From contig NZ_MJEI01000069.1 in NCBI RefSeq assembly GCF_002095395.1, positions 1 through 55,007 of the forward strand: a stretch of DNA of 55,007 bases. Direction: 5' to 3'. The notes beneath the pieces are model-generated. The model saw nothing but the letters and a program-made list of their open reading frames with translations. It ran no database searches and was not told the DNA's origin. The stretch is from Williamsia sp. 1135. Lineage in GTDB: Bacteria > Actinomycetota > Actinomycetes > Mycobacteriales > Mycobacteriaceae. A program made the translations under genes and the position numbers. Positions 2,667-55,007 of this stretch are shown here, one piece after another; position 1 is the first letter of the stretch; each line of letters opens with the position of its first letter.

Positions 2667-5600
2667 GTGGGCGACCGATCAACTGCGGGAGTGACGGCGA
2701 TGACCGGATCGAAACAGTCTGATCTGACAGATTCTGTTTTCGGGAATGTGTCGGCGCCTGTGAAAGACTTTCTGCCACAAGCAATCAGTGGATACTTTCA
2801 CAGGCCCGGCGCCCGCAGCGGCGTGGGCTGGGACGACTTGGAGACCACGCAACGATCCCAGCTCGTCCGCCATCTCGACGTCGCGTACGTGCGGACCGGC
2901 GGTGGCGCGGCCACCGACCTGGTCATCGACCGCGGGATCCTGTCGATGGTTCTCGTCGCGGACGACATGCCGCTGCTCGTCGAGTCCGTGGTTGCGGTGC
3001 TGGAGGCCGCGGGTCTGACGGTGGTGCGCATCGATCACCCGATCATGGACGTCCGGCGTAGCGCCGACGGAGTTCTGCTCGAGGTGGGCGCACCGCAGGA
3101 GTCCGGATCCCTACAGTTCTCGGCCGAATCGTGGATCCATGTCGAAGCGACACCGAACGTCTCCGCGGTGGATGTCGACCAGATATCCCGCGAGCTGGAT
3201 GTCGTGGTGGGGCGCATCGCGGACGTCCACCGCGACCGCACCGCGATCCTGTCCGTGATCACCGATCTCGCCGGTGACTTCAGTGCGTACACCACGGAGA
3301 CGGCGCCTGACGGCCTGGACCCAACGGTGGCAGGCGATTACGGCCGCATGTTGTCGTGGCTCGCCGACCACCACTTCGCGCCGTATGGATACGTGCGTTG
3401 CTCCGGCCCTGCTGACGCAGGTACCCCGGATCCGGATTCCGGACTCGGGGTCTGGCGCAGCGGTGCTGTTGCGCATCGGGCCACCGGTGGTGCGGATGCG
3501 GTGTCGGTGCGACAGCTGTACCTGCCGACCCGCATCCAGCGGTCCAACTTCCCGAGTCTGATCGGGGTCGCCGATTACGACGGCGCGGGCAACCGCGTCG
3601 GCGAGCACGTGTTCGTCGGTACCTTCACGCCGACTGCCCTCCACGAGAACATTCTCGAGATACCGGTTCTAGACGCCAAGGTGGCAGCGATCCTCGCGGC
3701 CGCCGACGTCCAGGCCGATTCGTATACCGGCATGGCCATGCTCGAGTTGCTGCAGACGTTCCCGCGGTCCGAGCTGTTCTCGGTGGACGCCGATGAGATG
3801 GCCAGAACGCTCACCGAGGTCCTCGAGGCCGTCCCCAACCGGCAACTACGCGTATTCCTGCGCCCGGACCCGGCCGGTGAGATCGTCTCGGCGCTGGTCT
3901 ACCTGCCGAGAGATCGCTACACGACGCGACTTCGCGAGACACTCCAGAACCTCTTGCTGGATGAGCTCGGTGGTGACGCACTGGAATACACCGCGCGGGT
4001 CAGTGAATCGGCACTCGCGCTCCTGCACGTCATGATGCGGGTGAAGACGCCCGACTGTGACCGGCTGGGATCCCTGGCGGTCGGGTCGGCGGGGCAGGTC
4101 GAGATCCAGGACACGCTCATCGAGGCGGCCCGCGGTTGGGACGAACGGTTGAGGGAGGTCGCGGCGACCGCTCCGAGCCCAGACGTCGTCGACGAGGTCT
4201 CGTTCTTCACGTCCACCTTGCCGGACAGCTACAAGGACGTGCGCGATCCACAGGAGGCGTTCGAGGACATCGAGATCGTCCAGTCGCTGGCCGGCGGCGA
4301 TTTTCACGTCAGGCTGCACCGCGGGACGGCCGATGACGACAGTCCGTCGGGGCGGGCCGACTGGCGCTTCTCGTTTTATCTCTGCGGCAGGCCGGCGACG
4401 CTGACCGAGGTGCTGCCGGTGCTGCACAGCCTTGGCGTGAACGTCCTCGACGAGCGGCCGTTCGAGATCCGCCGGCAGGACGGTGAGCAGTGTTATGTGT
4501 ACGAGTTCGGGCTGACGCTCGCGGGCGGAATGATCGTGGATCCCGACAGCCTCGCAGATGTCGAGGATCGCTTCACCGACGCGTTCGCGCAGATGTGGCG
4601 GGGGCATGCCGAGGTCGACAACTTCAACGAGCTGATCTTCCGCTGCGGACTCTCTTGGCGCGAGGCCGCGATGCTCAGGGCCTACGCGAGATACCTGCGC
4701 CAATGCGGTTCCTCCTACAGCGTGACCCACGTTGCCGCCGTGCTGGGAACCAACGTCTCGGTGACCAAGTCCCTGGTCGAACTGTTCCGGGCGTCCTTCG
4801 ATCCGCGGTCGGCCGATGCCGGCCGGCGCGCCGAGGTCCTCGACGAACTGACGGCCGCGATCGGCGCGATCATCAGCATGGACGTCGACAGGATCGTCAA
4901 CGCCTATGTCGCGGCGCTCTCGGCGACCGTGCGCACGAACTACTACGGCACGGATAATCAGGGGCTTCCGCACAAGGTGCTCAGTTTCAAGTTCCGGCCG
5001 CGTGACATCCCACAGACCCCACAGCCGCGACCACTGTTCGAGATCTATGTGTACTCACCTCGCGTAGAAGGCGTCCATCTGCGCTTCGGCTCCGTCGCCC
5101 GCGGCGGATTGCGCTGGTCGGATCGGCAAGAGGACTTCAGAACCGAGATCCTCGGTCTGGTCAAGGCCCAGGCCGTGAAGAACGCCGTCATCGTGCCGGT
5201 CGGTTCCAAAGGCGGATTCGTGGTGAGGCGGCCACCGATCCCCACCGGGGATCCCGCAACAGACCGCGATGCGTTCCGCGCTGAAGGCATCGAATGTTAT
5301 CGCCGGTTCATCGCCGGATTGCTGGACCTGACAGACAACATCGATCAGAGATCAGGTGAGACGGTCGGCCCTGCCGAGGTGGTTCGCCGCGACGACGACG
5401 ATCCGTATCTCGTCGTGGCGGCGGACAAGGGCACCGCCACCTTCTCCGACATCGCCAACGATGTTGCGGGCCAATACAACTTCTGGCTCGGCGATGCGTT
5501 CGCGTCAGGTGGTTCGGCGGGCTACGACCACAAGGCCATGGGCATCACCGCGCGCGGCGCGTGGGAGGCGGTCAAACGCCACTTCCGCGAGATGGGCACC

Positions 5601-7517
5601 GACACCCAGACCGAGGACTTCACCGTCGTCGGCGTCGGGGACATGAGTGGCGACGTCTTCGGCAACGGCATGTTGCTCTCCGAGCACATCCGGCTCGTGG
5701 CGGCCTTCGACCACCGCCACATTTTCATCGACCCTGACCCCGACGCCGCGGCGTCGTTCACCGAACGGCAGCGACTGTACGACCTTCCGCGGTCGTCGTG
5801 GGCCGACTACAACACGGATCTGATCAGCACCGGTGGCGGAGTGTGGCCGCGCGATCAGAAGTCGATACCCGTGAGCCCGCAGGTGGCCACCGCGCTGGGG
5901 CTGTCCGAGGACATCAGTCACCTCTCACCGCCGGATCTGATCCGGGCGATCTTGCTGTCGCCGGTCGATCTGCTCTGGAACGGGGGTATCGGCACCTACG
6001 TCAAGGCCAGCACCCAGTCTCACGAGGACGTCGGTGACAAGGCCAACGACGCCATCCGGGTCGACGGAAACGAGTTGCGCGCCAGGGTGATCGGAGAGGG
6101 CGGCAACCTTGGAGTGACCGAGTTGGGCCGGATCGAGTTCGATTTGAGCGGTGGCCGCATCAACACCGACGCCATGGACAACTCGGCAGGCGTCGACTGC
6201 TCCGATCATGAGGTCAACATCAAGATCCTCCTCGACTCCCAGGTGTCGGCCGGCAATCTCGCGGCAGCGCAGCGAAACCCGCTGCTCGAATCGATGACCA
6301 CCGAGGTGGGCGATCTCGTCCTCGCCGACAACGTCTCGCAGAACGCCGAATTGGGAACCAGCCGGGCCGGCGCGGCGGGCACTGCCGGTGTCTACACGCG
6401 GCTGCTCAAGGACCTCGCGGCCCGCGGGGTGGATCTGCGGCTCGAGGCGCTGCCCCGGCCCGCCGACCTGATCAAGCGCGGAAACGTCACGGGCAGAAAC
6501 GGTTTGACCTCGCCGGAACTCGCGACGGTGATGGCGCATGTGAAGCTGGGGTTGAAGGCGGACATGCTGGCGGGCGAGTTGCCCGACAACGATGTCTTCT
6601 CGCCGCGTCTGATCGACTACTTCCCGCAGCCGCTGCAGGAGCGCTTCACCGACGGGATCGCCACGCATCCATTGCGCCGCGAGATCGTCACGACCGCGGT
6701 GGTGAACGATCTGGTCGACAACGCAGGTATCACTCACGTCTTCCGCCTGTGCGAGGGCAGTGGGTCGGACCCCGTCGACGTCGTGCGGTCATATCAGGCC
6801 GTCACCGACATCTTCGGATTGCACGCACTATGGCACGACATCGCTACCGCGCCGTGTGACATCCCGACGACCAACGCGATGGTCGTCTACACCCGCCGGC
6901 TGCTCTTCCGGGCCTCGCGGTGGATGATCGCCGGAAGGCCCCAGCCGTTGGCCATGGCGGCGGAGGTGACGCGGTACGGCGAACTCGTGGCCGAACTGTC
7001 ACCGCGGCTGCCGAACTGGCTGCGCGGCATCTCCGAAGGTGGAGTGGGCGAACGCGCGAGCGACCTGGTCGACGCCGGCGTGCCGGAGAAGACCGCCCAG
7101 GCGGTCGCGGTGAGTCTGCACCGCTTCTGTCTCCTCGACATCATCGATGCAGCCGAGATCGCCGACCGTGACCCGGAGGAGGTGGGTGAACTCTACTTCG
7201 CGCTGATGGACCACCTCGGCGTGGAACAGCTCCTCAATGCGGTCTCGGACCTCGATCGCAAGGATCGATGGCATTCCCTCGCGCGGCTGGCGTTGCGCGA
7301 CGATCTGCACGGCGCGTTACGCGCGTTGTGCCTGGTGATCCTGGATTCGGGAGAACCCGAGGAATCGGCCGACGAGAAGATCGCCGACTGGGAACTCAGC
7401 AACGCCTCGCGGCTGTCCCGTGTCCGGGGGACGCTGTCGGAGATCGCGGAGTCTGGCGAGCTGGACCTGGCCACGCTGTCGGTGGCGGCGCGTCAACTGC
7501 GAAGTACGATCCGCTGA
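2667..7517 (+). CDS. gdh: NAD-specific glutamate dehydrogenase, large (180-kDa) class
   Basis: A 1616-residue protein, the usual length of the L_180 NAD-dependent glutamate dehydrogenases (M. tuberculosis Rv2476c about 1624). It oxidises glutamate to 2-oxoglutarate and ammonium using NAD. The N-terminal half holds the ACT-like regulatory regions. The catalytic part begins near residue 815 with ARGGLRWSDR and VGSKGGFVV, the glutamate-binding lysine segment; a Rossmann region with GVGDMSGDVFGNG follows near residue 990. GTG 2667 has a GGAG six bases upstream; ATG 2700 is a possible alternative. In mycobacteria this enzyme is inhibited by unphosphorylated GarA, which is not encoded here. The stop overlaps the start of the next gene by one base. 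Confidence 0.95.
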   Translation: MGDRSTAGVTAMTGSKQSDLTDSVFGNVSAPVKDFLPQAISGYFHRPGARSGVGWDDLETTQRSQLVRHLDVAYVRTGGGAATDLVIDRGILSMVLVADDMPLLVESVVAVLEAAGLTVVRIDHPIMDVRRSADGVLLEVGAPQESGSLQFSAESWIHVEATPNVSAVDVDQISRELDVVVGRIADVHRDRTAILSVITDLAGDFSAYTTETAPDGLDPTVAGDYGRMLSWLADHHFAPYGYVRCSGPADAGTPDPDSGLGVWRSGAVAHRATGGADAVSVRQLYLPTRIQRSNFPSLIGVADYDGAGNRVGEHVFVGTFTPTALHENILEIPVLDAKVAAILAAADVQADSYTGMAMLELLQTFPRSELFSVDADEMARTLTEVLEAVPNRQLRVFLRPDPAGEIVSALVYLPRDRYTTRLRETLQNLLLDELGGDALEYTARVSESALALLHVMMRVKTPDCDRLGSLAVGSAGQVEIQDTLIEAARGWDERLREVAATAPSPDVVDEVSFFTSTLPDSYKDVRDPQEAFEDIEIVQSLAGGDFHVRLHRGTADDDSPSGRADWRFSFYLCGRPATLTEVLPVLHSLGVNVLDERPFEIRRQDGEQCYVYEFGLTLAGGMIVDPDSLADVEDRFTDAFAQMWRGHAEVDNFNELIFRCGLSWREAAMLRAYARYLRQCGSSYSVTHVAAVLGTNVSVTKSLVELFRASFDPRSADAGRRAEVLDELTAAIGAIISMDVDRIVNAYVAALSATVRTNYYGTDNQGLPHKVLSFKFRPRDIPQTPQPRPLFEIYVYSPRVEGVHLRFGSVARGGLRWSDRQEDFRTEILGLVKAQAVKNAVIVPVGSKGGFVVRRPPIPTGDPATDRDAFRAEGIECYRRFIAGLLDLTDNIDQRSGETVGPAEVVRRDDDDPYLVVAADKGTATFSDIANDVAGQYNFWLGDAFASGGSAGYDHKAMGITARGAWEAVKRHFREMGTDTQTEDFTVVGVGDMSGDVFGNGMLLSEHIRLVAAFDHRHIFIDPDPDAAASFTERQRLYDLPRSSWADYNTDLISTGGGVWPRDQKSIPVSPQVATALGLSEDISHLSPPDLIRAILLSPVDLLWNGGIGTYVKASTQSHEDVGDKANDAIRVDGNELRARVIGEGGNLGVTELGRIEFDLSGGRINTDAMDNSAGVDCSDHEVNIKILLDSQVSAGNLAAAQRNPLLESMTTEVGDLVLADNVSQNAELGTSRAGAAGTAGVYTRLLKDLAARGVDLRLEALPRPADLIKRGNVTGRNGLTSPELATVMAHVKLGLKADMLAGELPDNDVFSPRLIDYFPQPLQERFTDGIATHPLRREIVTTAVVNDLVDNAGITHVFRLCEGSGSDPVDVVRSYQAVTDIFGLHALWHDIATAPCDIPTTNAMVVYTRRLLFRASRWMIAGRPQPLAMAAEVTRYGELVAELSPRLPNWLRGISEGGVGERASDLVDAGVPEKTAQAVAVSLHRFCLLDIIDAAEIADRDPEEVGELYFALMDHLGVEQLLNAVSDLDRKDRWHSLARLALRDDLHGALRALCLVILDSGEPEESADEKIADWELSNASRLSRVRGTLSEIAESGELDLATLSVAARQLRSTIR

Positions 7518-8209
7518 TGGCAGAGCTCACGCTGACCGCGCACGACCGCGTCGACCTCTCGACGTTTGCCGCGCGGGCGCTACGGGGTGACGACATGGCC
7601 GTGCTCCGGATCCGGGTCCGACCGGACGGACTACTCGGAGTGTGGGTCAACACCGGATTCGACGTGCTGGCGAGCCGGGTCGTGGTGGGGTCGATCTCCG
7701 GCGACGACGTGGTCTGCGGCGCGGCGGAACTGCGGTCGGCGCTGCAGGCCGCGGCATCGGATCCAGGCAGGGCCACGATCGACACCGGTTTCGCCCTCGA
7801 CAGCGCCTGGCACGGCGCCCTGCCGCCAGTGGACGGGTTCTCGCATCTCGACGATGTGCCCGCCCGCGTCCTGGTGGAGCTCTCTCGCAGCGGGGCCGAA
7901 GTGGCCCGCACCCAGGGCAGCGGACACGGCCCACCGACCTCATTGCTGAATCAACAGGTGCTCGACGTCTCCGCTGAGACTTCTGACCAGGTCGTGGGGA
8001 TATCGATGCGCTCGATCTTCGCGCTGACAGCGATGGGTTTCGTGCGCCAGTCCGACAATCGCGACGTCACCGAGGACTCACCCCTCGAACTGATCGATGC
8101 CGACGAGGTCGTGCGCGTGCGGCATACGGCTGTCTGGGCCCGCCTCGACGCGAGGTTCGGCTCGGTATATCAGCGCCGGACCATGTCGCTGTCGCTGTCG
8201 GTCAACTGA
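7517..8209 (+). CDS. Conserved hypothetical protein coupled to gdh (Rv2475c position)
   Basis: A 230-residue protein starting at an ATG that shares one base with the gdh stop (TGATG), so it is translationally coupled to gdh. No signal peptide or membrane segment. I recognise no domain with confidence. The N-terminal two thirds look like an alpha/beta fold with short strands, and the C-terminal part (about 150-230) is richer in polar residues. It sits where Rv2475c sits in M. tuberculosis, a gene of unknown function. The coupling suggests a role tied to glutamate dehydrogenase expression or activity, which is inference only. Confidence 0.8.
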   Translation: MAELTLTAHDRVDLSTFAARALRGDDMAVLRIRVRPDGLLGVWVNTGFDVLASRVVVGSISGDDVVCGAAELRSALQAAASDPGRATIDTGFALDSAWHGALPPVDGFSHLDDVPARVLVELSRSGAEVARTQGSGHGPPTSLLNQQVLDVSAETSDQVVGISMRSIFALTAMGFVRQSDNRDVTEDSPLELIDADEVVRVRHTAVWARLDARFGSVYQRRTMSLSLSVN

Positions 8210-8220
8210 AGACCGAAAGT

Positions 8221-8269
8221 GGTGGGTTCTGGCGATGCCGACCTGGGAAAATGCCCGCCAGAAGCCACC
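8221..8269. terminator. Hairpin between convergent genes
   Basis: GGTGGGTTCTGGCG (8221-8234) pairs with CGCCAGAAGCCACC (8256-8269) with one mismatch over 14 bases and a 21-base loop. It lies between two convergent genes, where a bidirectional terminator is expected. No long T tract follows. Confidence 0.6.
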
Positions 8270-8280
8270 AAAATCGGTTC

Positions 8281-9942
8281 TCAGATCAGCCAGGCCGCGG
8301 AGTTCGGCGCGAGCTTGCCCTCGACCAGTGGTGTGCTGCTCAACAGCACATCCCCCGGCGGCAGGCCGATGGGGGTCGGCCCGGCGTTGAGCGCGCAGAC
8401 CAGCTTGCCCATCGATCGGCGGAACGCCAGGCAGCCCTCGGGCGCGCCGTACCACTCGATGCCCTCACCCGCGAACTCTGGACGGTTCTTCCGCAGCTCG
8501 ATGGCCTGCCGGTAGAGCGACAGGGTGGAATCGATGTCCTCGAGTTGGGCTTCGACGGTCAGCCCGGACCATTCCGCCGGAATCGGCAACCAGGTGTCGG
8601 GATTGGTGGAGAACGCGAACGGCGGCGAGGCACCTTCCCAGGGCAGTGGCACGCGGCAGCCGTCGCGGCCGCGTTCGGTGTGACCTGAGCGCTCCCACAC
8701 CGGATCCTGGAGCACGTCATCGGGCAGGTCGGCGTTCGGCAGACCCAGTTCGGCGCCGTTGTAGACGAACGCGGCGCCCGGCAGCGCCAGTTCGACGAGG
8801 ATCATCGCCCGTGCCCGGTCGGTGCCGGCCGAGGGCGAGTCATGCTCCGCGTAGCGGGTGACCTCACGCTCGACATCGTGGTTCGACAGTGTCCAGGTCG
8901 GTGTGCCCGACACCGAGGCGACCGCTTCGAGCGAATGCTCGATGGCTTCCCGGATCTCCTCCGAGTCGAACTGCACCTTCGCCAGCCGGAAGTTGAAGCC
9001 CAGGTGGAGTTCGTCTGGTCGCACGTACTCGGCGAATCGGACGTTGTCCTTCACCCAGATCTCGCCGACGGTCATCGCGTCGGGGTAGTCGTCGAGCACT
9101 GCGCGGATTCGCCGGTGGATGTCGTGGACGCCGGCATTGTTGAAGCGGGGATCGTCATCATCGTTGCTGAGCAGGCCGACCGCCTCGTGGTCCATGTCCG
9201 GCAGGCCCTCGGGCTTGGCCATCCCGTGGGCGACGTCGATGCGGAAGCCGTCGACTCCGCGGTCGAGCCAGAATCGGAGGGTCTTCTCGAGGTCGGCAAA
9301 GACCTCCGGGTTGTCCCAGTTCAGATCGGGTTGCTCGGGAGCGAAGATGTGCAGGTACCACTGGCCGGGAGTTCCGTCGGGCGCGGTGACCCGGGTCCAT
9401 GCCGGCCCACCGAACACGCTGGGCCAGTTGTTCGGTGGCTGATCGCCGTCGGGGCCCTTGCCGTCCCGGAAGATATAGCGTTCACGGGCCGGGCTCCCCG
9501 GGGCGGCCCCGAGAGCCTCCAGAAACCACGCGTGCTGATCGCTGGTGTGGTTGGGGACCAGATCCATGGTGACCTTGATGCCGCGACTGTGCGCCTCGGT
9601 GATGAGGGTGTCGAGCGAATCGAGGCCGCCGAACAGTGGGTCGATGTCGCGAGGATCGGATACGTCATAGCCGTGGTCGGCCATCGGGGACTTCATCACG
9701 GGACTGAGCCACAGGGCGTCGATACCGAGCAGCTCGAGGTATCCGAGTTTGTCGATCACACCCGGGATGTCGCCCACCCCATCTCCATTGTGATCTGAGA
9801 ACGATCGTGGGTAGATCTGGTAAAAGATCGCGTTTTGCCACCACAGCGGGTATTCGGCCGTCATTGCAGGCTGAACGCGCTGTGCCGCATCGGTTTCGGC
9901 TGCGGAAAGATCGTTGTTCTGCGTGTCACTCACACCACTCAT
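8281..9942 (-). CDS. aglA: GH13 alpha-glucosidase / oligo-1,6-glucosidase
   Basis: A 553-residue glycoside hydrolase family 13 protein, as at Rv2471 (aglA) in M. tuberculosis. It begins after a disordered 30-residue leader with the typical WWQNAIFYQIYPRSF and NGDGVGDIPG segments. The three catalytic acids are visible: nucleophile Asp in GFRIDVAHGM (about residue 236), acid/base Glu in VGEIWV (about 294) and Asp in SNHDVER (about 356). Cytoplasmic, with no signal peptide. Likely hydrolyses alpha-glucosidic bonds of small maltodextrins, isomaltose-type sugars or trehalose-derived sugars; exact specificity cannot be read from sequence. ATG 9864 (MTAEYPLWW) is an alternative start. Confidence 0.9.
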   Translation of the reverse strand: MSGVSDTQNNDLSAAETDAAQRVQPAMTAEYPLWWQNAIFYQIYPRSFSDHNGDGVGDIPGVIDKLGYLELLGIDALWLSPVMKSPMADHGYDVSDPRDIDPLFGGLDSLDTLITEAHSRGIKVTMDLVPNHTSDQHAWFLEALGAAPGSPARERYIFRDGKGPDGDQPPNNWPSVFGGPAWTRVTAPDGTPGQWYLHIFAPEQPDLNWDNPEVFADLEKTLRFWLDRGVDGFRIDVAHGMAKPEGLPDMDHEAVGLLSNDDDDPRFNNAGVHDIHRRIRAVLDDYPDAMTVGEIWVKDNVRFAEYVRPDELHLGFNFRLAKVQFDSEEIREAIEHSLEAVASVSGTPTWTLSNHDVEREVTRYAEHDSPSAGTDRARAMILVELALPGAAFVYNGAELGLPNADLPDDVLQDPVWERSGHTERGRDGCRVPLPWEGASPPFAFSTNPDTWLPIPAEWSGLTVEAQLEDIDSTLSLYRQAIELRKNRPEFAGEGIEWYGAPEGCLAFRRSMGKLVCALNAGPTPIGLPPGDVLLSSTPLVEGKLAPNSAAWLI

Positions 9943-10575: not shown

Positions 10576-11262
10576 ATGTCGCGGACGAAGACGCAGCGCG
10601 AGAAGGCACGCGCAGTGCAGGAAGGCGTCGCGGCCCGTGCCGACGCGCGCGTCAGGACACGGGGCGAGGCCAGCGTGTCCACCCTCGACCCGCGTTCCGG
10701 TGCGACCGACGCGGTCATGGGTCCGCCGACAGGTGCCAACTCCCGGTGGGGTAAGCATCGGGTCCTGCTCCTCAACGCGACCTATGAACCGCTCGCAGCC
10801 ATTTCGATACGTCGGGCGATAGTCCTGGTCCTTCGCGAGCGGGCCGACGTCATCCACGAGGACGGCGCCGGCCCACTCATTCATTCGGCAGACCTCGCAC
10901 TCGCCATCCCGTCGGTGATCCGGCTGCGCAACTACGTCCGGGTTCCGTATCGCGCGGTCATCCCGATGACGAGGGCTGCGCTCATGCAGCGCGACCGGAC
11001 CAGATGTGGCTATTGCGGCGGCAAGGCGGACACCATCGACCACGTGGTCCCACGCAGTCGCGGCGGCACCCACACCTGGGACAACTGCGTCGCCTGCTGC
11101 GCTTCGTGCAATCACAAGAAGGCCGACAAGCTGCTCAGCGAGCTCGGGTGGACGCTCAAGGTGCCGCTGACCGCGCCCAAGGGCAGGCACTGGCGGTTGT
11201 TGGCGACCGTGAAGGACTTCGATCCGGCGTGGATGCGCTACCTGGATGTCGGGGCAGCGTAG
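10576..11262 (+). CDS. HNH endonuclease family protein (Rv2469c type)
   Basis: A 228-residue protein. The first 55 residues are basic and probably disordered. A conserved VLLLNATYEPL segment (about 63-73) follows, then a zinc-bound HNH motif near residues 142-185: CGYCG, DHVVPRSRGG, an Asn and a CxxC with CNHKK. The HNH residues look intact, so nuclease activity is plausible. This family is widespread in actinobacteria as a chromosomal gene at this locus and is not part of an obvious restriction system here. ATG 10576 has GGGAGG just upstream. Its physiological role is unknown to me. Confidence 0.85.
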   Translation: MSRTKTQREKARAVQEGVAARADARVRTRGEASVSTLDPRSGATDAVMGPPTGANSRWGKHRVLLLNATYEPLAAISIRRAIVLVLRERADVIHEDGAGPLIHSADLALAIPSVIRLRNYVRVPYRAVIPMTRAALMQRDRTRCGYCGGKADTIDHVVPRSRGGTHTWDNCVACCASCNHKKADKLLSELGWTLKVPLTAPKGRHWRLLATVKDFDPAWMRYLDVGAA

Positions 11263-12182: not shown

Positions 12183-14750
12183 TCAGCTCTTGTCGAACTC
12201 GCGTGCCCGCAACGCGCGGGCCACGGTGTCGCGGCCTTCGGAGATCAGCCGCCGCAGTGCGGAGGGATGGTCGCCGGCCAGGAGTTCGTCAGCGAGTGCG
12301 AGTCCGCGCTCGTCGGCGGCCCAATTCGGGTAGAGGCCGACCACGACCGTCTGCGCCACCTCGCTCGAACGGCGCGCCCAGACCTGCGGCACCGCCTCGA
12401 AGTACTTTGCGGTGTACGGCGCGAGGAGTTCGCCCTGCCCCGGACGCGAGAATCCGGCGATGATCGACCGGCCCAAGGTGTTGGACAGGGAATCGTCTTC
12501 CACGGCGCGTGACCAGGCATCTGCCTTTGCCTCGGCCAACGGCCGGGCGGCCCTGGCCCTGGCGGCCTGACGGCTGCCCGCCGAGGTGTTGTCCCGTTCC
12601 AGTTCCGCGTCGATCACCGGAGTGCTCGACGGATCGGTGTCGATGGCCCCTGCGGTCGCCAAGGCGTTGACTATCGACCACCGCAGATCGGTGTCCACGG
12701 TCAGTCCCGGCAGACCCTGGTCGGCGGGGTCACCGTCGAGCAGCGCCGCGACCACGTCGGTCTGCTCCGGTGCCAGTACCCCGGACAGCAGCGAGTTCAC
12801 GAACGCCAACTGATGATCCGAGCCGGCCTCGGCCGCGCGGGCGAGTTCGAGGAGACGGGTGCTGAACTCGGGCCAGCCGTTCGCGGTGGCCCACTCCGGG
12901 TCGGCGTAGGCGTCGATTGCGGTCTGGGCCTGCAAGAGCACCCGCTGCACCACACCGATCTCCGATTCTGATCCGATGCCGTGAGCGACCAGGGCCGCGA
13001 AGTCACGGGCGCGCATCTCGGCCTGCCGCGTCATCTCCCACGCGGCCGACCACGCCAGCGTCCGCGGCATCGATTCGCTGATGTCGCCGATCCGGCTGGT
13101 CACCGTCGCCAGTGAGTCGGGGTCCAAGCGCACCGAGCAGTAGGTCAGATCGTCGTCGTTGAGCAGGATGAGTTGTCCGCGATGGACTCCGACCAGCTCG
13201 TCGACCGAGGTGCGATCTCCGGCGACATCGAGTTCGACTCGTTTGGTACGCACCAGCTTTCCGTCGACATCGTCGTAGACGCCGACGGCGAGGCGGTGGG
13301 TCCGGGTTTCGCCGGCACCGGGGGCCGCGCCGTCCTGGAGGATGTTGAACCGGGTGATCACTCCCGCGTCGTCGAGATCGAAGTCCGGTCGGATGACGTT
13401 GATCCCGGTGGTCTTGAGCCATTGCGAGCCCCAGTCGGACAGATCCCGACCCGACGACTTCTCGAGGGCTCCGAGCAGATCGCTGAATGTGGCGTTCCCG
13501 AATTTGTGTGCCTGGAAGTAGTCCCGCAGACCTGCCAGGAAGTGGTCGAGGCCCACATACGCGACGAGCTGCTTGAGCACGGATGCGCCTTTGGCGTAGG
13601 TGATCCCGTCGAAGTTCACCTCGACCGCCGCGATGTCGGGGATGTCCGCGGCCACCGGGTGCGTGGAGGGCAGCTGGTCCTGGCGGTAAGCCCAGGACTT
13701 CTCCACATTCGCGAAGGTGGTCCAGGCGTTCTTGTATTCAGTGGCCTCCGATTGGCAGAGCACGGAGGCGAAGGTGGCAAAGGACTCGTTGAGCCACAGG
13801 TCATCCCACCACTGCATCGTGACCAGGTCGCCGAACCACATGTGGGCCATCTCGTGCAGGACGGTCTCGGCGCGCCGCTCATAGAGGTACTTCGTCACCT
13901 TGGACCGGAAGACGTAGTCCTCGAGGAAGGTGACCGCGCCGGCGTTCTCCATCGCTCCGGCATTGAACTCCGGAACGAACAGCTGATCGTATTTGCCGAA
14001 CGCGTAAGGGATGCCGAAGTTCTTGTGGTAGAACTCGAATCCCTGCTTGGTCTCGGTGAACAGTCGTTCTTCGTCCATGAACTCCGCCAGTGACGATCGG
14101 CAGAAGATGCCGAGGTCGATCGTGCCGTGTTCATCGGTGTAGGCGTCTGTCCACTGCGTGTACGGGCCGGCGATGAGAGCGACCAGGTAGGTGCTCAGCA
14201 GGGGAGTCGTCGCGAACGTGTGTGTGCCCGGCGATGTTTCGGTACCGGCGCCGTTGGAAATCACCTTCCAATCGGTGGGCGCGGTGACGGTGACATCAAA
14301 TGTCGCCTTCATGTCCGGCTGGTCGAAACACGCGAACATCCTCTTGGCGTCGGCAGTCTCGAATTGTGAATAGAGGTAGACCGCGTCATCTGTCGGGTCG
14401 ACGAAGCGATGCAGGCCCTCGCCGGTGTGCGAGTACACACAATCGACAACGATCTCGAGAGTGTTCTCGCCGGCCAGGTCCGCCAGTGCCAGCCCGTCCT
14501 CCTCGGAATACCCGGCGATGTCCAGCGCGGTCCCGTTCAGCTTCGCTGTGTGGACCGTCTCGGCGATCAGATCGACGAACGACGACGAACCCGCGGTTGC
14601 GCTGAAGGTGATGGTCACCGCCGACCGGAACGTCTTCTCGCCGGGTTTGCCTGCGCCGTCGGTGAGGTCGAGATCGATCGCATAGTTCGAGACCGAGATG
14701 TTCGCCGACCGCTGGCCCGCGAGATCACGGGTCAAATTTGGTGCCGCCAC
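12183..14750 (-). CDS. pepN: Aminopeptidase N (M1 zinc metallopeptidase)
   Basis: An 855-residue M1 peptidase matching Rv2467. The exopeptidase motif GAMEN lies at about 265-269 and the zinc site HEMAH at 299-303, followed by NESFA with the third zinc ligand Glu. The C-terminal half is the helical ERAP1-like domain. It removes N-terminal residues from peptides in the cytoplasm and is the natural partner of the Clp system further right. Start chosen at GTG 14750 (VAAPNLTRDL), with GAGG about eight bases upstream. The frame remains open 30 codons further, but that part is made of a short direct repeat and gives an unlikely N-terminus. Confidence 0.94.
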   Translation of the reverse strand: MAAPNLTRDLAGQRSANISVSNYAIDLDLTDGAGKPGEKTFRSAVTITFSATAGSSSFVDLIAETVHTAKLNGTALDIAGYSEEDGLALADLAGENTLEIVVDCVYSHTGEGLHRFVDPTDDAVYLYSQFETADAKRMFACFDQPDMKATFDVTVTAPTDWKVISNGAGTETSPGTHTFATTPLLSTYLVALIAGPYTQWTDAYTDEHGTIDLGIFCRSSLAEFMDEERLFTETKQGFEFYHKNFGIPYAFGKYDQLFVPEFNAGAMENAGAVTFLEDYVFRSKVTKYLYERRAETVLHEMAHMWFGDLVTMQWWDDLWLNESFATFASVLCQSEATEYKNAWTTFANVEKSWAYRQDQLPSTHPVAADIPDIAAVEVNFDGITYAKGASVLKQLVAYVGLDHFLAGLRDYFQAHKFGNATFSDLLGALEKSSGRDLSDWGSQWLKTTGINVIRPDFDLDDAGVITRFNILQDGAAPGAGETRTHRLAVGVYDDVDGKLVRTKRVELDVAGDRTSVDELVGVHRGQLILLNDDDLTYCSVRLDPDSLATVTSRIGDISESMPRTLAWSAAWEMTRQAEMRARDFAALVAHGIGSESEIGVVQRVLLQAQTAIDAYADPEWATANGWPEFSTRLLELARAAEAGSDHQLAFVNSLLSGVLAPEQTDVVAALLDGDPADQGLPGLTVDTDLRWSIVNALATAGAIDTDPSSTPVIDAELERDNTSAGSRQAARARAARPLAEAKADAWSRAVEDDSLSNTLGRSIIAGFSRPGQGELLAPYTAKYFEAVPQVWARRSSEVAQTVVVGLYPNWAADERGLALADELLAGDHPSALRRLISEGRDTVARALRAREFDKS

Positions 14751-16642: not shown

Positions 16643-16721
16643 GAGCACCAATCTAGTGCCGCGCGATCCGCGGTGATGGGTGGCTTTCTCTGCACCCGCC
16701 ACCTCTGACAGACTGGGCGGC

Positions 16722-17195
16722 ATGCGCGTGTATCTGGGTGGAGACCATGCCGGCTTCGAGTTGAAGGGGCAGATCGCAGAACATCTGACCTCTGCAGGAC
16801 ATGAGGTGATCGATTGCGGGGCGCACGAATACGACGCCCTGGACGACTACCCGGCGTTCTGCGTCGAGGCTGCGCGGCGGACCGTCGCCGACGAGGGCAG
16901 TCTCGGCATCGTGCTCGGCGGCAGCGGTAACGGCGAGCAGATCGCCGCGAACAAGGTCCCGGGCGCCCGTTGCGCCCTCGCCTGGAGTGTGGAGACCGCG
17001 CAGCTCGCGCGTCAGCACAACAACGCCCAGCTCATCGGCATCGGCGGACGGATGCACAGCAAGGACGAAGCGCTGGCTATCGTCGATGCATTCGTGTCGA
17101 CCGCATGGTCGGAAGAAGCGCGCCACCAGCGTCGCATCGACATCCTGTCCGAGTACGAGCGCACGGGGACGCCGCCGGCGCTGCCCGGCGACTGA
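16722..17195 (+). CDS. rpiB: Ribose-5-phosphate isomerase B
   Basis: A 157-residue RpiB, matching Rv2465c. It converts ribose-5-phosphate and ribulose-5-phosphate in the pentose phosphate pathway. GGDHAGFELK at the N-terminus and LGGSGNGEQIAANK near residue 70 form the active site. The GSGNGE form is that of the mycobacterial subgroup, which uses Glu where E. coli uses Cys. ATG 16722 gives the family N-terminus MRVYLGGDHAG. The nei gene follows after 15 bases, so the two are probably one unit. Confidence 0.95.
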   Translation: MRVYLGGDHAGFELKGQIAEHLTSAGHEVIDCGAHEYDALDDYPAFCVEAARRTVADEGSLGIVLGGSGNGEQIAANKVPGARCALAWSVETAQLARQHNNAQLIGIGGRMHSKDEALAIVDAFVSTAWSEEARHQRRIDILSEYERTGTPPALPGD

Positions 17196-50505: not shown

Positions 50506-51236
50506 CAGACAGCGTCCGTGAGGTGTCCGACGCAGCCGTCGACCATGCTGAATTGCTTGCGGCGCTCAATATCTCGTTGTCAGATGAGATGCTGACCCTC
50601 GCATTGACGCACCGTTCGTACGCGTACGAGCACGGCAGACTGCCCACCAACGAACGGCTCGAGTTCCTGGGTGACTCGGTACTCGGGGTCGTCATCACCG
50701 AGCAGCTCTACCGCACCCACCCCGACCGCCCGGAAGGTGAGCTCGCCAAGATCCGGGCCAGCGTCGTGAACATGCACGCGCTCGCCGCGGTCGCCAAAGG
50801 CCTCGGTCCCGGTGGACTCGGGGCACATCTGCGGCTCGGTCGCGGCGAGGAAATGACCGGCGGCCGAGACAAGGCGAGCATCCTCGCCGACGGCATGGAA
50901 GCGCTCATCGGCGCCGTCCACCTCGAACACGGTCTGGAAACGGCGCGGACCACGGTGCTCGCTCTGTTCGAGCCGGCGCTGACCCGGTCGGCGGCACTGG
51001 GCGCCGGGCTGGACTGGAAGACGTCACTGCAGGAATTGACCGCAGAGAAAGGCCTGGGCGTTCCGGCGTACCAGATCACCTCAACCGGCCCTGACCACTG
51101 CAAGGAGTTCACCGCGACGGTGATGGTCGGCGGCGATTCGATGGGGTCCGGTGTCGGACGGACCAAGAAGGAAGCCGAACAGATCGCTGCCTCCACCGCG
51201 TGGAAAGCGATCTCGGGTACCGGAGACGATGCCTGA
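50502..51236 (+). CDS. rnc: Ribonuclease III
   Basis: A 244-residue RNase III. Signature [13 protein letters not shown] near residue 50, second metal segment [16 protein letters not shown] near 127, and a C-terminal double-stranded RNA-binding domain from about 165. GTG 50502 overlaps the DUF177 stop (GTGA) and the end overlaps mutM by eight bases, so the three are translated as one unit. Matches Rv2925c. Confidence 0.97.
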
Positions 51237-52131
51237 ACTGCCCGAGGTGGAGGTTGTTCGCCGCGGCCTTCTCGGACATGTCGTAGGTAGGCGCATCATG
51301 GCCGTCGAGGTGCTACATCCGCGTGCGGTGCGGCGACAACTCGGCGGTGCTGCTGATCTCATCGGTCTGCTGGCCGGGGCCACGGTGACAGCCGCTCGGC
51401 GACGAGGCAAATATCTGTGGCTCGAGGCGGATCCGGCAGCGGCCGCCGACCCGATCGCCATACTCGTGCACCTCGGTATGAGCGGACAGATGCTCGTCCA
51501 GTCCGCGGGCGCAGTCGACGAAAAGCACCTGCGCATCCGCGCCACCCTCGACGACGGCACCGAATTGCGGTTCGTCGACCAGCGAACTTTCGGCTCGTGG
51601 ATGGTCGACGACATCGTGGGCTCCGTCCCCGCATCGATCGCGCACATCGCACCCGACCCCTTCGACCCCGGTTATGACCAGTCGGCCGTCGTCAAGGTCC
51701 TGCGCGGCAAGCACACCGAGATCAAACGTGCTCTTCTCGATCAGACGGTGGTATCCGGGGTCGGGAACATCTACGCCGATGAAGCGCTGTGGCGCAGTCA
51801 GATCCACGGTCAGCGGCTCACCGACAAACTGCCGGTCAAGTCGCTGCGCGCAGTGCTCGACAATGCCGCCGCCGTCATGTCCGAGGCACTCGACCAGGGC
51901 GGCACCTCGTTCGATGCCTTGTACGTCAACGTCAACGGCCAGTCAGGCTACTTCAGCAGAGAGCTACATTCATACGGACGCGAGGGGCTGCCTTGTCACC
52001 GATGCGGGACGCCGATCCGGCGCGAGTCATTCATGAACCGCAGCTCGTTCTATTGTCCGACGTGTCAGCGGCTGCCGAGGCGGGGGAGTGGCACCGGTCG
52101 CTACAGCCGCCGGATAGTGCCTCCTCGATGA
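51229..52131 (+). CDS. mutM: Formamidopyrimidine-DNA glycosylase, slightly extended at the C-terminus
   Basis: A 300-residue Fpg. Pro2-Glu3 ([13 protein letters not shown]) is the catalytic start, the H2TH part includes [15 protein letters not shown] near residue 178, and the zinc finger has CHRCG and CPTCQ. It removes 8-oxoguanine. Family proteins normally end within a few residues of CPTCQ; here a further 20 residues, Arg/Gly-rich, follow and run into the accessory segment. This suggests that the original end was altered when foreign DNA joined here. ATG 51229 lies inside rnc. Confidence 0.95.
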
Positions 52132-52138
52132 CCTGCCA

Positions 52139-52402
52139 TTGAGGCTGTACGACGAGGGTGGTGACGCCCATTGGCCCGCGCGGTGCGCCTACGTTCGATC
52201 AGGAAGCTTTGTCGCACAAGGGAATACCGAGCTGCCCGTCGTGTCGGCGTTCGAGGACGCATACGCAGGTGAGTGGACTAGCGTTCTCGACTATGCCGAG
52301 GAGTTCATCGAGGAGTGTGTGGCACGATTAAGGGGTCCCCGACGAGCCGCGCGACCGTCTGGGCGACCTGGTCTGCCGGATCGCGCCGCACATCGACCCT
52401 GA
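52139..52402 (+). pseudogene. Probable ArdA antirestriction gene fragment
   Basis: A short open frame of 87 codons. Residues 33-60 (52235-52318), including SAFEDAYAGEWTSVLDYAEE and the following FIEEC, closely resemble the middle of ArdA-type antirestriction proteins, where an Asp/Glu-rich helix of this pattern follows a Tyr-Gly turn. The N-terminal about 32 residues are not ArdA-like, and after EEC the frame becomes Arg/Pro-rich and off-family. It is therefore a remnant of about 30 recognisable residues, likely left by a conjugative or phage element. The remainder to 52544 shows no other gene I can name. Confidence 0.55.
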
Positions 52403-52544
52403 CGTCGACGAGGATCGGCTCGAACGCGGACCGTGATGCGACAAGAGCGAGACCCCGCACCGGCATCCGGTGTGGGTGCCTTCTGCTGTCCCGCCAGCTA
52501 TCCGGCACCCCGGCGGTCGCGACTTCCGGCTGGTGCCGCAGGCG

Positions 52545-53435
52545 TCACGTGCGAACCGTCGCCCTAGTCTCCCTCTTGGTGCCATGCGCGTCTGTCCATG
52601 TGACCACGCACTCGACCGCGTCGGGGGATCCCATCGCGATAAGCATTGGGAACCGAGCCTCTCGTCCCGGGGGGATGGTTCCGACCGGGCCGTCGCCTCT
52701 ATGGACGTCGAAGTACGCGTCATCCGGCAGGTTCTTGAAGGCGAAGTCGACGTCCGACGCCGGACCGTTGGAGGTGTTGTGAAGCACCAGGGACCACTTG
52801 CGCTGTGTCTTGACGCGGCCCTTGCTGTCGGTCCTTACGCTCTCCCGCACCTCGGCGCGCGGCCACACGCCCTCAGACGTGTCCGGCGACGGCTCTTCCT
52901 GCTTCGAGTTCTCGACTGATTGCTGGAACTTTGCCGTCGCCCGGCTCAGGAAGTTGTTGATGCCGCTCATGAGATCGCCCTCGTGGGAATACTCGAAGAC
53001 CAGTGCCGACTTGCGCAGCTCGTTCAAGTAGCCGTCGAGTCTCCGGCGCTCCTCCAGCGCCTTCCCGTTCAGCGGTGCCCGCGGGGCACTGCTCACGAGG
53101 ACTGCGACCGACTTCCCGGCCTTGACGAGGACGTCTATCTCCTCGGCCGTGCCCGACTCCGCCTCGCCGGTCGGCGTCCCGAGCCGGTCGAAGAAGAGCG
53201 CGACCGCCAGGTCCGACTCTTCGACGATCTGGTCGTTGAGAATCGCTTGGGGCCGTTCGCCGAACTCGGACGCAGCGTGCTCGGTCCAGGAGACTGGGAG
53301 CACAGTGAGCCCGAAAGAGCGGCCGAAGGCGAGGTTCCACTGGCTGATCGTCTTGCGGACGACGGCGAGGTCGCTGGGCGGCACGTCTCCAGGGGCGGAC
53401 ACGAGAAGGTGAAGGGCGAGGGTCGAGTACGCCAT
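52545..53435 (-). CDS. TIR-like (DUF4062-type) domain protein with C-terminal beta-sandwich
   Basis: A 296-residue cytoplasmic protein. Residues about 5-130 have the pattern LLVSAPGDVPP, WN, GERPQAILNDQIVEESDLAV, FFDRLGTPTG and SGTAEEI (94-100), which I know from the DUF4062/TIR-superfamily domains found in bacterial immune effectors and STAND proteins. Glu98 or Glu99 would sit where TIR NADases carry their catalytic Glu. A charged linker follows. Residues about 205-296 look like an Ig/fibronectin-like beta-sandwich (WSLVLHNTSNGPASDVDFAF). ATG 53435 has GGAGG ten bases upstream. It lies 379 bases after the TIR gene on the same strand. Function inferred only from domains. Confidence 0.8.
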   Translation of the reverse strand: MAYSTLALHLLVSAPGDVPPSDLAVVRKTISQWNLAFGRSFGLTVLPVSWTEHAASEFGERPQAILNDQIVEESDLAVALFFDRLGTPTGEAESGTAEEIDVLVKAGKSVAVLVSSAPRAPLNGKALEERRRLDGYLNELRKSALVFEYSHEGDLMSGINNFLSRATAKFQQSVENSKQEEPSPDTSEGVWPRAEVRESVRTDSKGRVKTQRKWSLVLHNTSNGPASDVDFAFKNLPDDAYFDVHRGDGPVGTIPPGREARFPMLIAMGSPDAVECVVTWTDAHGTKRETRATVRT

Positions 53436-53814
53436 CGGGTGACGTCCTCCTTCGTGGTCAGGGCCAACCGGTGCTGGACCACCATCCTTGCATTCGAGAC
53501 CGACGATTCGCGTCGGAGTTGCTCGAAGCCGCGTTCGATTCATTGAGGTACGTCGTGTACGGGACCAGATCCCGCACAGGGCTGCTCGCGGCGTCCTACG
53601 CGGCGTTGCTTGGGGACGACGAGGGCAAGCCGAGCGGCCTCGCCGCGCAATGTCCAGCAGCCCGGACGGGCACCACGCGGCCGAGCCGAAGGCTCAGTGC
53701 ACACGGTGATCGACGTGCAACCCGTCGATCACTCGGAAACGCCGGCTTCCCTCGGCCAGGAGCCGCAGCAGTCGCGGTACGTACAGTCCGGTTGGCCGCT
53801 CCGCAGGAGTTGCG
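53436..53814. other. Gap between the two TIR-type genes, no clear gene
   Basis: 379 bases with no coding region that I can support on the minus strand. A plus-strand frame contains EAAFDSLRYVVYG and AASYAALLGDDEG, which look protein-like, but it runs on antisense through the TIR gene and has no ribosome site. The gap may carry a separate promoter for the 52545-53435 gene. Confidence 0.5.
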
Positions 53815-54888
53815 TCAGATCACAGCATTCCAACAGGCCTTCTTCTTCAGGTCCATCGGCGTCTCGTACTCCTGTTTGAACCAGTCGGAGAACGCTTCGC
53901 TGCGCTCCTGGGGTACGAGATACTGGTCCAGCTCAGCAACAGCGTCACGGGCACGCCTGACCCGAGGGAAGGTGGAGTCTGGGCTGACGACACCGGTTTC
54001 CTCATCGACGATCAGCAGTCCATTCTTTCTCTCATCGTCGATGGCATCGCACTCATCCGGGGAATCGAAACGTTCCGGCACGAACATCTCCTGATCGGCG
54101 ACATCGTGCCACACCGCGTCGCGCACAGGGTTACTCAGACCGAGAAGTGCCTCGGTCACGCGAGTGCACAATGCGTCGAATCGCTCGCGCTCATCAGTGG
54201 GAAGGTCAGCCTCCCGAGCTTCGGCTCCCGTTTTGGCCGCGAGGAGCCGCTCGTGGCGATTTCTCAGTTCCTCCAGTTCGTCCGTCTTCTTGTCGAGTGC
54301 GGACTGGGTGCTTTCAAGCTCCCTTGCGAGGCGCTTCATGTCATCAGCACTGGGAGGCAGATCCAGTCGCGCGGGAGCGAGTCCCCTGCGCAAATCCGAC
54401 TTCCAATCCACTTTGCCCTCCCCGAACGATGTCGCCTGGAACTCGAAACCCAGGCCACGGATCCGATCAGCAAGCTCGTCCAGGACGTTCTCGTCGTCGG
54501 CTGGTTTTATCATCAGCCCCGGCAGCACGCCCTCCAGGTCCGACCTATCCATCCCTGGTGCCAGGAGGGGGAAGAGCACACCGCGGGCCCACGCCGCGCC
54601 CAGTTCTGCCACACACACAGGCCGCGCCTGGTACATCGGGGTGACCATGGCAATGATGAGTTCAGAGTCGGAGGCCTCGGTGCGGACCCGTTCCATCAGG
54701 TGCTGGCCTGACGCGACGCCCATGTCTGCGGCAGACGAATAGAACACATCGGGCGCGCACAGATCCGCGCCCCGCAGCAAGATGTGCGTGACGAACTTCT
54801 TCAAGTACTCGCCGTCCGCATTCGCGTGCGAGACGAAGACCCGCGATCCACCCTTGCTCCTGCTCAATCCTTGCCCCTCCGCCGACAT
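53815..54888 (-). CDS. TIR domain / coiled-coil protein with an unrecognised C-terminal domain
   Basis: A 357-residue soluble protein. The TIR domain covers about 14-150: RVFVSHANADGEYLKKF as box-1-like strand and helix, ELIIAMVTPMYQARP as the central strand, and CVAELGAAW with the candidate catalytic Glu95 of TIR NADases. A coiled coil of about 45 residues (near 195-240, heptads of Leu/Glu/Lys) leads to a C-terminal part of about 110 residues, rich in Asp/Glu and Trp, that I do not recognise (DAVWHDVADQEMFVPERFD). ATG 54888 has AAGGA seven bases upstream. Such TIR effectors usually deplete NAD or make cyclic ADP-ribose signals on phage attack; this is inference for this gene. Confidence 0.85.
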   Translation of the reverse strand: MSAEGQGLSRSKGGSRVFVSHANADGEYLKKFVTHILLRGADLCAPDVFYSSAADMGVASGQHLMERVRTEASDSELIIAMVTPMYQARPVCVAELGAAWARGVLFPLLAPGMDRSDLEGVLPGLMIKPADDENVLDELADRIRGLGFEFQATSFGEGKVDWKSDLRRGLAPARLDLPPSADDMKRLARELESTQSALDKKTDELEELRNRHERLLAAKTGAEAREADLPTDERERFDALCTRVTEALLGLSNPVRDAVWHDVADQEMFVPERFDSPDECDAIDDERKNGLLIVDEETGVVSPDSTFPRVRRARDAVAELDQYLVPQERSEAFSDWFKQEYETPMDLKKKACWNAVI

Positions 54889-55007
54889 CAGTAGTCCTTA
54901 GAAGCGTAAGCCACCAGCCTTCGTCTGCAAGTGTGTAGGAGCGAGTGCCACCGGGACTGTCTGAATAACGGTTGATCCGGTCATTGGTTCAACACGCCGA
55001 GCTGAGC
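54889..55007. other. Right edge, upstream region of the TIR gene
   Basis: 119 bases to the window edge with no gene seen; probably holds the minus-strand promoter of the TIR gene. The composition is somewhat more AT-rich than the left part of the window. Confidence 0.4.

Follow-up and report, generated by a model that had tools for sequence, protein, structure and literature searches.

The window analysed here, which is the whole of a 55,007-nucleotide contig (C9; NZ_MJEI01000069.1) from the 5.98 Mb, 107-contig genome of Williamsia sp. 1135, carries at its right end two adjacent genes on the minus strand, as an earlier note on this DNA had described. One encodes a protein of 357 aa (53815..54888) with a TIR domain, a middle segment that is a coiled coil by eye and a conserved C-terminal domain; the other encodes a DUF4062 (TIR-like) protein of 296 aa (52545..53435). 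Both reading frames are intact, and the genes are separated by 379 bp (53436..53814) in which no mutM fragment was found. On the plus strand lie an ArdA-like (antirestriction) remnant (52139..52402) and, before it, mutM (51229..52131), whose 3′ end is foreign from 51955 on when compared with congener G001. The contig stops at 55007, 119 bp past the TIR start codon, inside a multicopy repeat (54953..55007, 55 bp) that begins 64 bp before that codon. The mobile-element remnant mentioned in the note can be equated with the ArdA-like scrap, which falls below the Pfam cut-off (20.9 against 27 bits).

A TIR protein related to SpbK

The TIR domain occupies residues 17 to about 145 (54454..54840, minus strand), as delimited by a Pfam TIR_2 match to residues 17–111 (54550–54840; 31.3 bits, cut-off 28) together with the match to SpbK, the antiphage TIR protein of ICEBs1 in Bacillus subtilis, which senses the phage portal (PMC12847820). 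Searched against the PDB, the family profile retrieved the SpbK TIR (9phb) at E 5.6e-30 over profile positions 3–157 of 343, with a CRISPR-associated TIR as the second-best match (E 1.9e-4), and the assignment to the classical TIR domains made in the note is thereby borne out. The motif CVAELGAAW is present, and its glutamate, residue 95 (codon 54604..54606, minus strand), already named there as the candidate residue, is identical in 36/36 rows of an alignment made up of the window protein and 35 relatives chosen for length, as are Phe18, Ser20, His21, Asp25, Ser52, Tyr86, Gly97 and Trp100. Mapped through the profile alignment, Glu95, Gly97 and Trp100 correspond to E192, G194 and W197 of SpbK; in the SpbK report the G194R and W197A mutants lose NADase activity and antiphage defence, while D158R and N191R are described as inactive (PMC12847820). 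The same mapping places Gly61 at the BB-loop Asp158, and Ala22, Asn23, Val91 and Ala94 at S121, S122, Y188 and N191 respectively. Since none of these five SpbK residues is kept, assembly and base binding may differ in the window protein.

The layout of the two proteins is reversed. In SpbK a four-helix domain that binds the portal stands at the N-terminus and the TIR at the C-terminus (PMC12847820), whereas in the window protein the TIR comes first and a linker leads to a C-terminal domain without a match in SpbK, there being no significant match within SpbK for profile positions 158–343. This C-terminal domain (residues 225–357; 53818..54216, minus strand), a candidate sensor, is conserved at 26–57% identity in seven actinobacterial relatives; it received no Pfam match, and searched alone against the PDB its best E-value was 0.48, in keeping with its description in the note as unrecognised. 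PADLOC models gave a spbK match of 41.2 bits over the TIR part of SpbK, as well as a match to PDC-S60 (34.6 bits) at residues 10–102, in which only positions 7–98 of a 906-position profile align. Thoeris resembles the present case in having a TIR-type protein in defence neighbourhoods, but no ThsA or ThsB model matches either window protein at E-values up to 1.

A scan of genome contigs with the TIR sequence alone as query confirmed no relative, whereas the alignment-led scan identified 60 loci, 19 of whose matches reach beyond query residue 240. The nearest relatives come from Gordonia otitidis (66% identical), a Microbacterium MAG (57%) and Brevibacterium (49%), and the plasmid search added a full-length relative from Rhodococcus fascians (97% covered, 32% identical). 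Among phage records the TIR part alone was matched by two Enterococcus phage records, and the PHROGs collection yielded a weak match, confined to the TIR part, to a family of unknown function; scans of IMG/VR confirmed no relative.

A DUF4062 protein related to KpSwz

The DUF4062 gene is best taken to start at the ATG at 53435, because relatives align from the methionine it encodes; an upstream start at 53543, giving 332 aa, was dropped. The single sequence scores only 14.7 bits against Pfam DUF4062 (cut-off 24.7), so that the domain call of the note was marginal at this level; it was settled by a family profile built from an 11-sequence alignment, which returned a single PDB match, to KpSwz (Swarozyc), at E 9.2e-6. 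A preprint of May 2026 presents DUF4062 proteins as TIR-like NADases and describes KpSwz as protecting E. coli through NAD loss, with a requirement for E97 and for an auxiliary domain of the HTH/winged type that binds the phage portal, by which KpSwz is triggered (PMC13174449). The motif SGTAEEI noted previously is present, and it is its second glutamate, E99 (codon 53139..53141, minus strand), that is identical in 11/11 rows; E98 was ruled out as the catalytic residue on account of a histidine in 1/11 rows. Glu99 aligns with an alanine in the deposited KpSwz chain and, since the structures in the preprint were made with an E97A mutant (PMC13174449), we infer that this alanine is the E97A change and that the catalytic position is held by Glu99.

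In common with KpSwz, a single gene encodes a DUF4062 TIR-like domain and, after it, an auxiliary domain at the C-terminus, and there is a glutamate at the E97 position. The profile match stops at position 170, short of the C-terminal domain (residues 186–296; 52548..52880, minus strand), which is conserved at 19–45% identity in ten relatives and appears, by pattern alone, to be a beta-sandwich. Here the two proteins diverge: the auxiliary domain of KpSwz is HTH/winged (PMC13174449), and sequence comparison did not find such a portal-binding domain in the window protein, whose C-terminal domain profile matched nothing in the PDB up to E 10. The protein likewise had no match in the phage records or in PHROGs.

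An insertion at the 3′ end of mutM

The synteny break claimed in the note is real and could be mapped within mutM. Comparison with six of eight congeners (L159–L164) shows that no 25-base block of mutM from 51751 to 51950 differs from congener G001 and that, by reading of the alignment, identity holds to 51954, past which it drops to 9–19/25 per block, fixing one edge of the island to base resolution. The stretch that would be expected to follow is found on contig C95, which carries smc and whose left end is an IS3-type transposase pair. Between that end and smc there are four stretches resembling a mutM 3′ end, at 3042, 12820, 13992 and 16702, the last of which (16702–17100) is 95.5% identical to G001 over 399 bp and corresponds to the native 3′ end; in six congeners, sequences matching mutM and C95 16702 lie together within one 2.2-kb fragment. 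As identity to G001 ends at 51954 and near-identity resumes at C95 16702, and matches to both places lie close together in the congeners, these alignments indicate that inserted DNA has parted mutM from its native 3′ end and that a foreign one has taken its place.

By their appearance the three remaining mutM-like stretches on C95 are additional 3′ ends of foreign origin, suggesting that one insertion followed another. A 66-residue query from the mutM tail gave five matches at E <1e-12 in this genome and one in each of the eight other genomes of the genus. Among the C95 mutM 3′ ends are encoded a CHAT-domain protein, a DUF900 hydrolase and an AAA_13 ATPase, the last of which we take to be RloC/PrrC-like. 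On balance it appears that the 3′ end of mutM serves as an attachment site at which elements, each with a replacement 3′ end, pile up and gather defence genes, the TIR and DUF4062 genes being cargo of the outermost module. A limited search of the literature on mutM and genomic islands found no published account of mutM in this role. Had a piece of mutM lain between the two genes, they would have counted as separate modules; the best candidate in 52301–55007 is a match of 34 bp at E 0.011 and was rejected.

The repeat at the right end of the contig recurs at nine other places in the genome, eight or more of which are contig ends, which identifies the assembly break as one at multicopy sequence. 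With the contig ending inside this repeat, the DNA 5′ of the TIR gene lies beyond view.

Recurrence of the two genes in other genomes

The note had proposed that the two genes form one system, and family HMMs were used to see whether they recur together. All 60 loci of the alignment-led scan, with flanks of up to 8 kb, carry the TIR family and none has the DUF4062 family, which is likewise absent from the two plasmid TIR loci L029 and L033, and none of 14 DUF4062 loci (L030–L032 and L034–L044, from nine genomes and three plasmids) has the TIR family of the window; the DUF4062 profile matches in 13/14 of the latter, L041 and L044 containing fragments only. Among 167 loci both families occur together in five, all of which are cuts of the window itself. 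Of 397 genomes sampled from the order, the present one included, 11 are matched by the TIR query, mostly in the TIR part only, and 17 by the DUF4062 profile. Three genomes (G000, G093 and G266) match both queries, with the two on one contig only in G000. Within the genus (nine genomes) the TIR gene occurs in 1/9 and the DUF4062 profile matches in 4/9, two of these matches being near full length. A conserved two-gene pair of this composition was therefore rejected, and on these sequence comparisons a single TIR and DUF4062 system is not supported.

A looser search for any TIR_2 gene, carried out in 13 genomes or records that form part of the DUF4062-bearing ones found, located one somewhere in 7/13 and, in 1/13, no more than 10 kb from the DUF4062 gene. 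On a Rhodococcus qingshengii plasmid a TIR_2 gene and the DUF4062 gene are about 4.3 kb apart, separated by an IS110 transposase, and the product of the TIR_2 gene has no match to the window TIR family by HMM; on a Curtobacterium plasmid a sub-cut-off TIR_2 match lies about 12 kb from the DUF4062 gene. These two plasmids are the results kindest to a pairing of the genes, yet they are weak.

Genes beside relatives of the two families

The surroundings of the TIR relatives are varied. In Brevibacterium (L056) the TIR gene shares a 4-bp overlap with that of a GmrSD protein and has a DNA methylase downstream, while in a Clostridia locus (L064) FRG and GmrSD_N proteins are found near the TIR gene, the GmrSD_N protein about 0.1 kb upstream. 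Three Rhodococcus records (L029, L060 and L061) have a 256-aa unknown protein encoded 36 bp upstream, and the nearest relative (L054, 66%) has upstream an opposite-strand ORF with a weak transposase zinc-ribbon match. Some relatives are plasmid-borne or stand beside relaxases and transfer genes. When ORFs up to 4 kb from 35 long-TIR loci were clustered, and after exclusion of clusters of 10, 5 and 3 loci made up of antisense ORFs overlapping the TIR gene, the top neighbour family occurred in four loci and contained the L057 relaxase. PADLOC models run on 90 neighbours from 33 TIR loci (86 picked by hand from 124 ORFs with likely shadow ORFs left out, plus four others) gave type III R-M, SIR2, HerA, ThsA/ThsB and CARF among the matches listed, which cover 25 of 293 families; the scan was uncontrolled and hence is no test of enrichment, and the ThsA and ThsB models each matched one of the 90 neighbours among the listed matches.

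Neighbours of the DUF4062 gene include Mrr (L034), a protein with a weak HEPN match (L035), a GHKL-type ATPase protein (L037), a deaminase (L042) and YfbU (L031). The note had held that its proposal would fail if the two genes were not conserved together and never occurred in defence islands; the pair is indeed not conserved, but defence-type neighbours do occur. From these gene neighbourhoods both genes look like single-gene units on mobile DNA.

Discussion

The two genes probably encode independent, single-gene antiphage NADases that act by abortive infection and that are neighbours within a composite island with the 3′ end of mutM as its point of insertion. The defence module of the note survives in part, in that both proteins resemble antiphage NADases and lie in an island with other cargo, while the pair does not behave as one system. 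Likewise its description as uncharacterised no longer fits the DUF4062 half, because an antiphage NADase of that kind is described in PMC13174449. The adjacency of the genes most likely reflects their arrival in the same inserted stretch of DNA and not membership of one two-part system, and the most likely agent that brought them together is the accretion island at mutM.

By analogy with their characterised relatives, a phage product would bind the C-terminal candidate sensor domain of the TIR protein, upon which the TIR domains would cluster and an active site with Glu95 would hydrolyse NAD+. In the DUF4062 protein the differing C-terminal auxiliary domain may act as the sensor, its triggering leading to NAD+ hydrolysis via Glu99, and in either case the infected cell would halt or die ahead of phage release. 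The first candidate for the trigger would be a phage structural protein such as the portal, because SpbK and KpSwz, the nearest characterised relatives, both sense portals. Neither of the known portal-binding domains of SpbK and KpSwz was found by sequence in the window proteins.

It might be argued that one of the two proteins senses and the other executes, or that their TIR-type domains co-assemble into one NADase. The genes share a strand, stand 379 bp apart and both belong to the TIR superfamily, and a loosely similar proximity is seen on the Rhodococcus qingshengii plasmid (about 4.3 kb) and, with a sub-cut-off match about 12 kb away, on that of Curtobacterium. Against this, the Rhodococcus qingshengii TIR falls outside the window TIR family, the 379-bp gap is not operon-like, the partner family is absent from all 60 TIR and all 14 DUF4062 loci, and the only loci of 167 with both families are cuts of the window, all of which makes a two-component system very improbable. 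The dependence of the TIR gene on an upstream partner, for instance a GmrSD-type nuclease, that is lost or off the contig, with the DUF4062 gene as an unrelated neighbour, is a somewhat better founded proposal, given the 4-bp overlap with GmrSD in Brevibacterium, the GmrSD_N protein about 0.1 kb upstream in Clostridia and the 256-aa protein 36 bp upstream in three Rhodococcus records. It too is unlikely, as the nearest relative has an opposite-strand ORF with a weak transposase zinc-ribbon match in that position and no neighbour family occurs in more than 4 of 35 loci.

There is also a small chance, rather slighter than that of an upstream partner, that one or both proteins act outside phage defence, for example in plasmid conflict, or that the TIR gene is a silent passenger. 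Some TIR relatives are carried on plasmids or lie beside relaxases, and with a multicopy repeat starting 64 bp from its start codon the TIR gene may have lost expression; yet the frames are intact, the catalytic positions are kept and the closest characterised relatives are antiphage proteins. Two independent antiphage NADases remain our preferred reading.

On this reading both proteins are variants of known antiphage NADases that can be put to the test, and their candidate sensor domains are unlike the characterised ones: that of the TIR protein lies at the end opposite to that of SpbK, and the auxiliary domain of the DUF4062 protein is unmatched to that of KpSwz. If both were to sense other phage parts, they would exemplify one killing domain re-aimed through a swap of sensors. 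The case also separates chance neighbourhood within an inserted island from a genuine two-gene system, and it points to the array of mutM 3′ ends as a place to look for more defence genes in this order, another family of which includes a genome (G077) in which mutM is followed by a gene that is methylase-like by eye and by two more mutM 3′ ends.

Possible serial insertion at mutM

Sequence comparison shows that the mutM 3′ end at window 51955–52131 is foreign from 51955 onwards. Between the left end of C95, the contig of the same Williamsia genome that carries smc, and smc itself lie three more foreign-looking mutM 3′ ends and then the native one, these four stretches occupying positions 3042–3201, 12820–12981, 13992–14086 and 16702–16845 of locus L122 (the first 20,000 nt of C95). 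The displaced native end and the extra 3′ ends are consistent with serial insertion at mutM, judged from sequence. A comparable array is present in G077, a genome from another family of the order, where mutM (2148–2999 of locus L167, cut from contig C1 at 3546001–3563000) is followed by cargo and two additional mutM 3′ ends (10616–10756 and 12936–13088), the cargo including a gene that by eye is methylase-like.

An ArdA-like antirestriction remnant (window 52139–52402; Pfam 20.9 bits, below the cut-off) is placed between mutM and the DUF4062 gene, and is weakly similar to the stretch following the first mutM fragment on C95. Two mutM 3′ ends on C95 flank a module (L122 7604–12713) in which Pfam identifies a DUF900 alpha/beta hydrolase and a CHAT-domain protein, together with an overlapping large ORF without a Pfam match; this is possibly a CHAT-based defence module. 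A 761-aa AAA_13 ATPase (L122 14224–16509; Pfam AAA_13, 286 bits), which may be RloC/PrrC-like, sits between the third foreign-looking and the native 3′ ends. The 252-aa protein encoded at L122 1800–2558 has a hydrophobic segment at its N-terminus and gave nothing above the cut-off in a Pfam scan; its C-terminal part is similar in pattern, by eye, to the C-terminal domain of the DUF4062 protein.

Neighbours of TIR-gene relatives

In three Rhodococcus records (L029 9192–11074; L060 and L061, both 7192–9074) the TIR relative is preceded, 36 bp upstream, by a gene whose 256-aa product belongs to no known Pfam family. In the Brevibacterium locus L056 a gene for a 615-aa GmrSD protein overlaps the TIR relative by 4 bp (6154–9050) and an N6/N4 methylase gene lies 61 bp downstream, an arrangement that is possibly a TIR-GmrSD operon. 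Clustering of neighbour ORFs placed those upstream of the TIR relative in L056 (4874–6065) and in the Microbacterium locus L055 (5962–8010) in one cluster, and thus both relatives may have inserted beside the same chromosomal gene.
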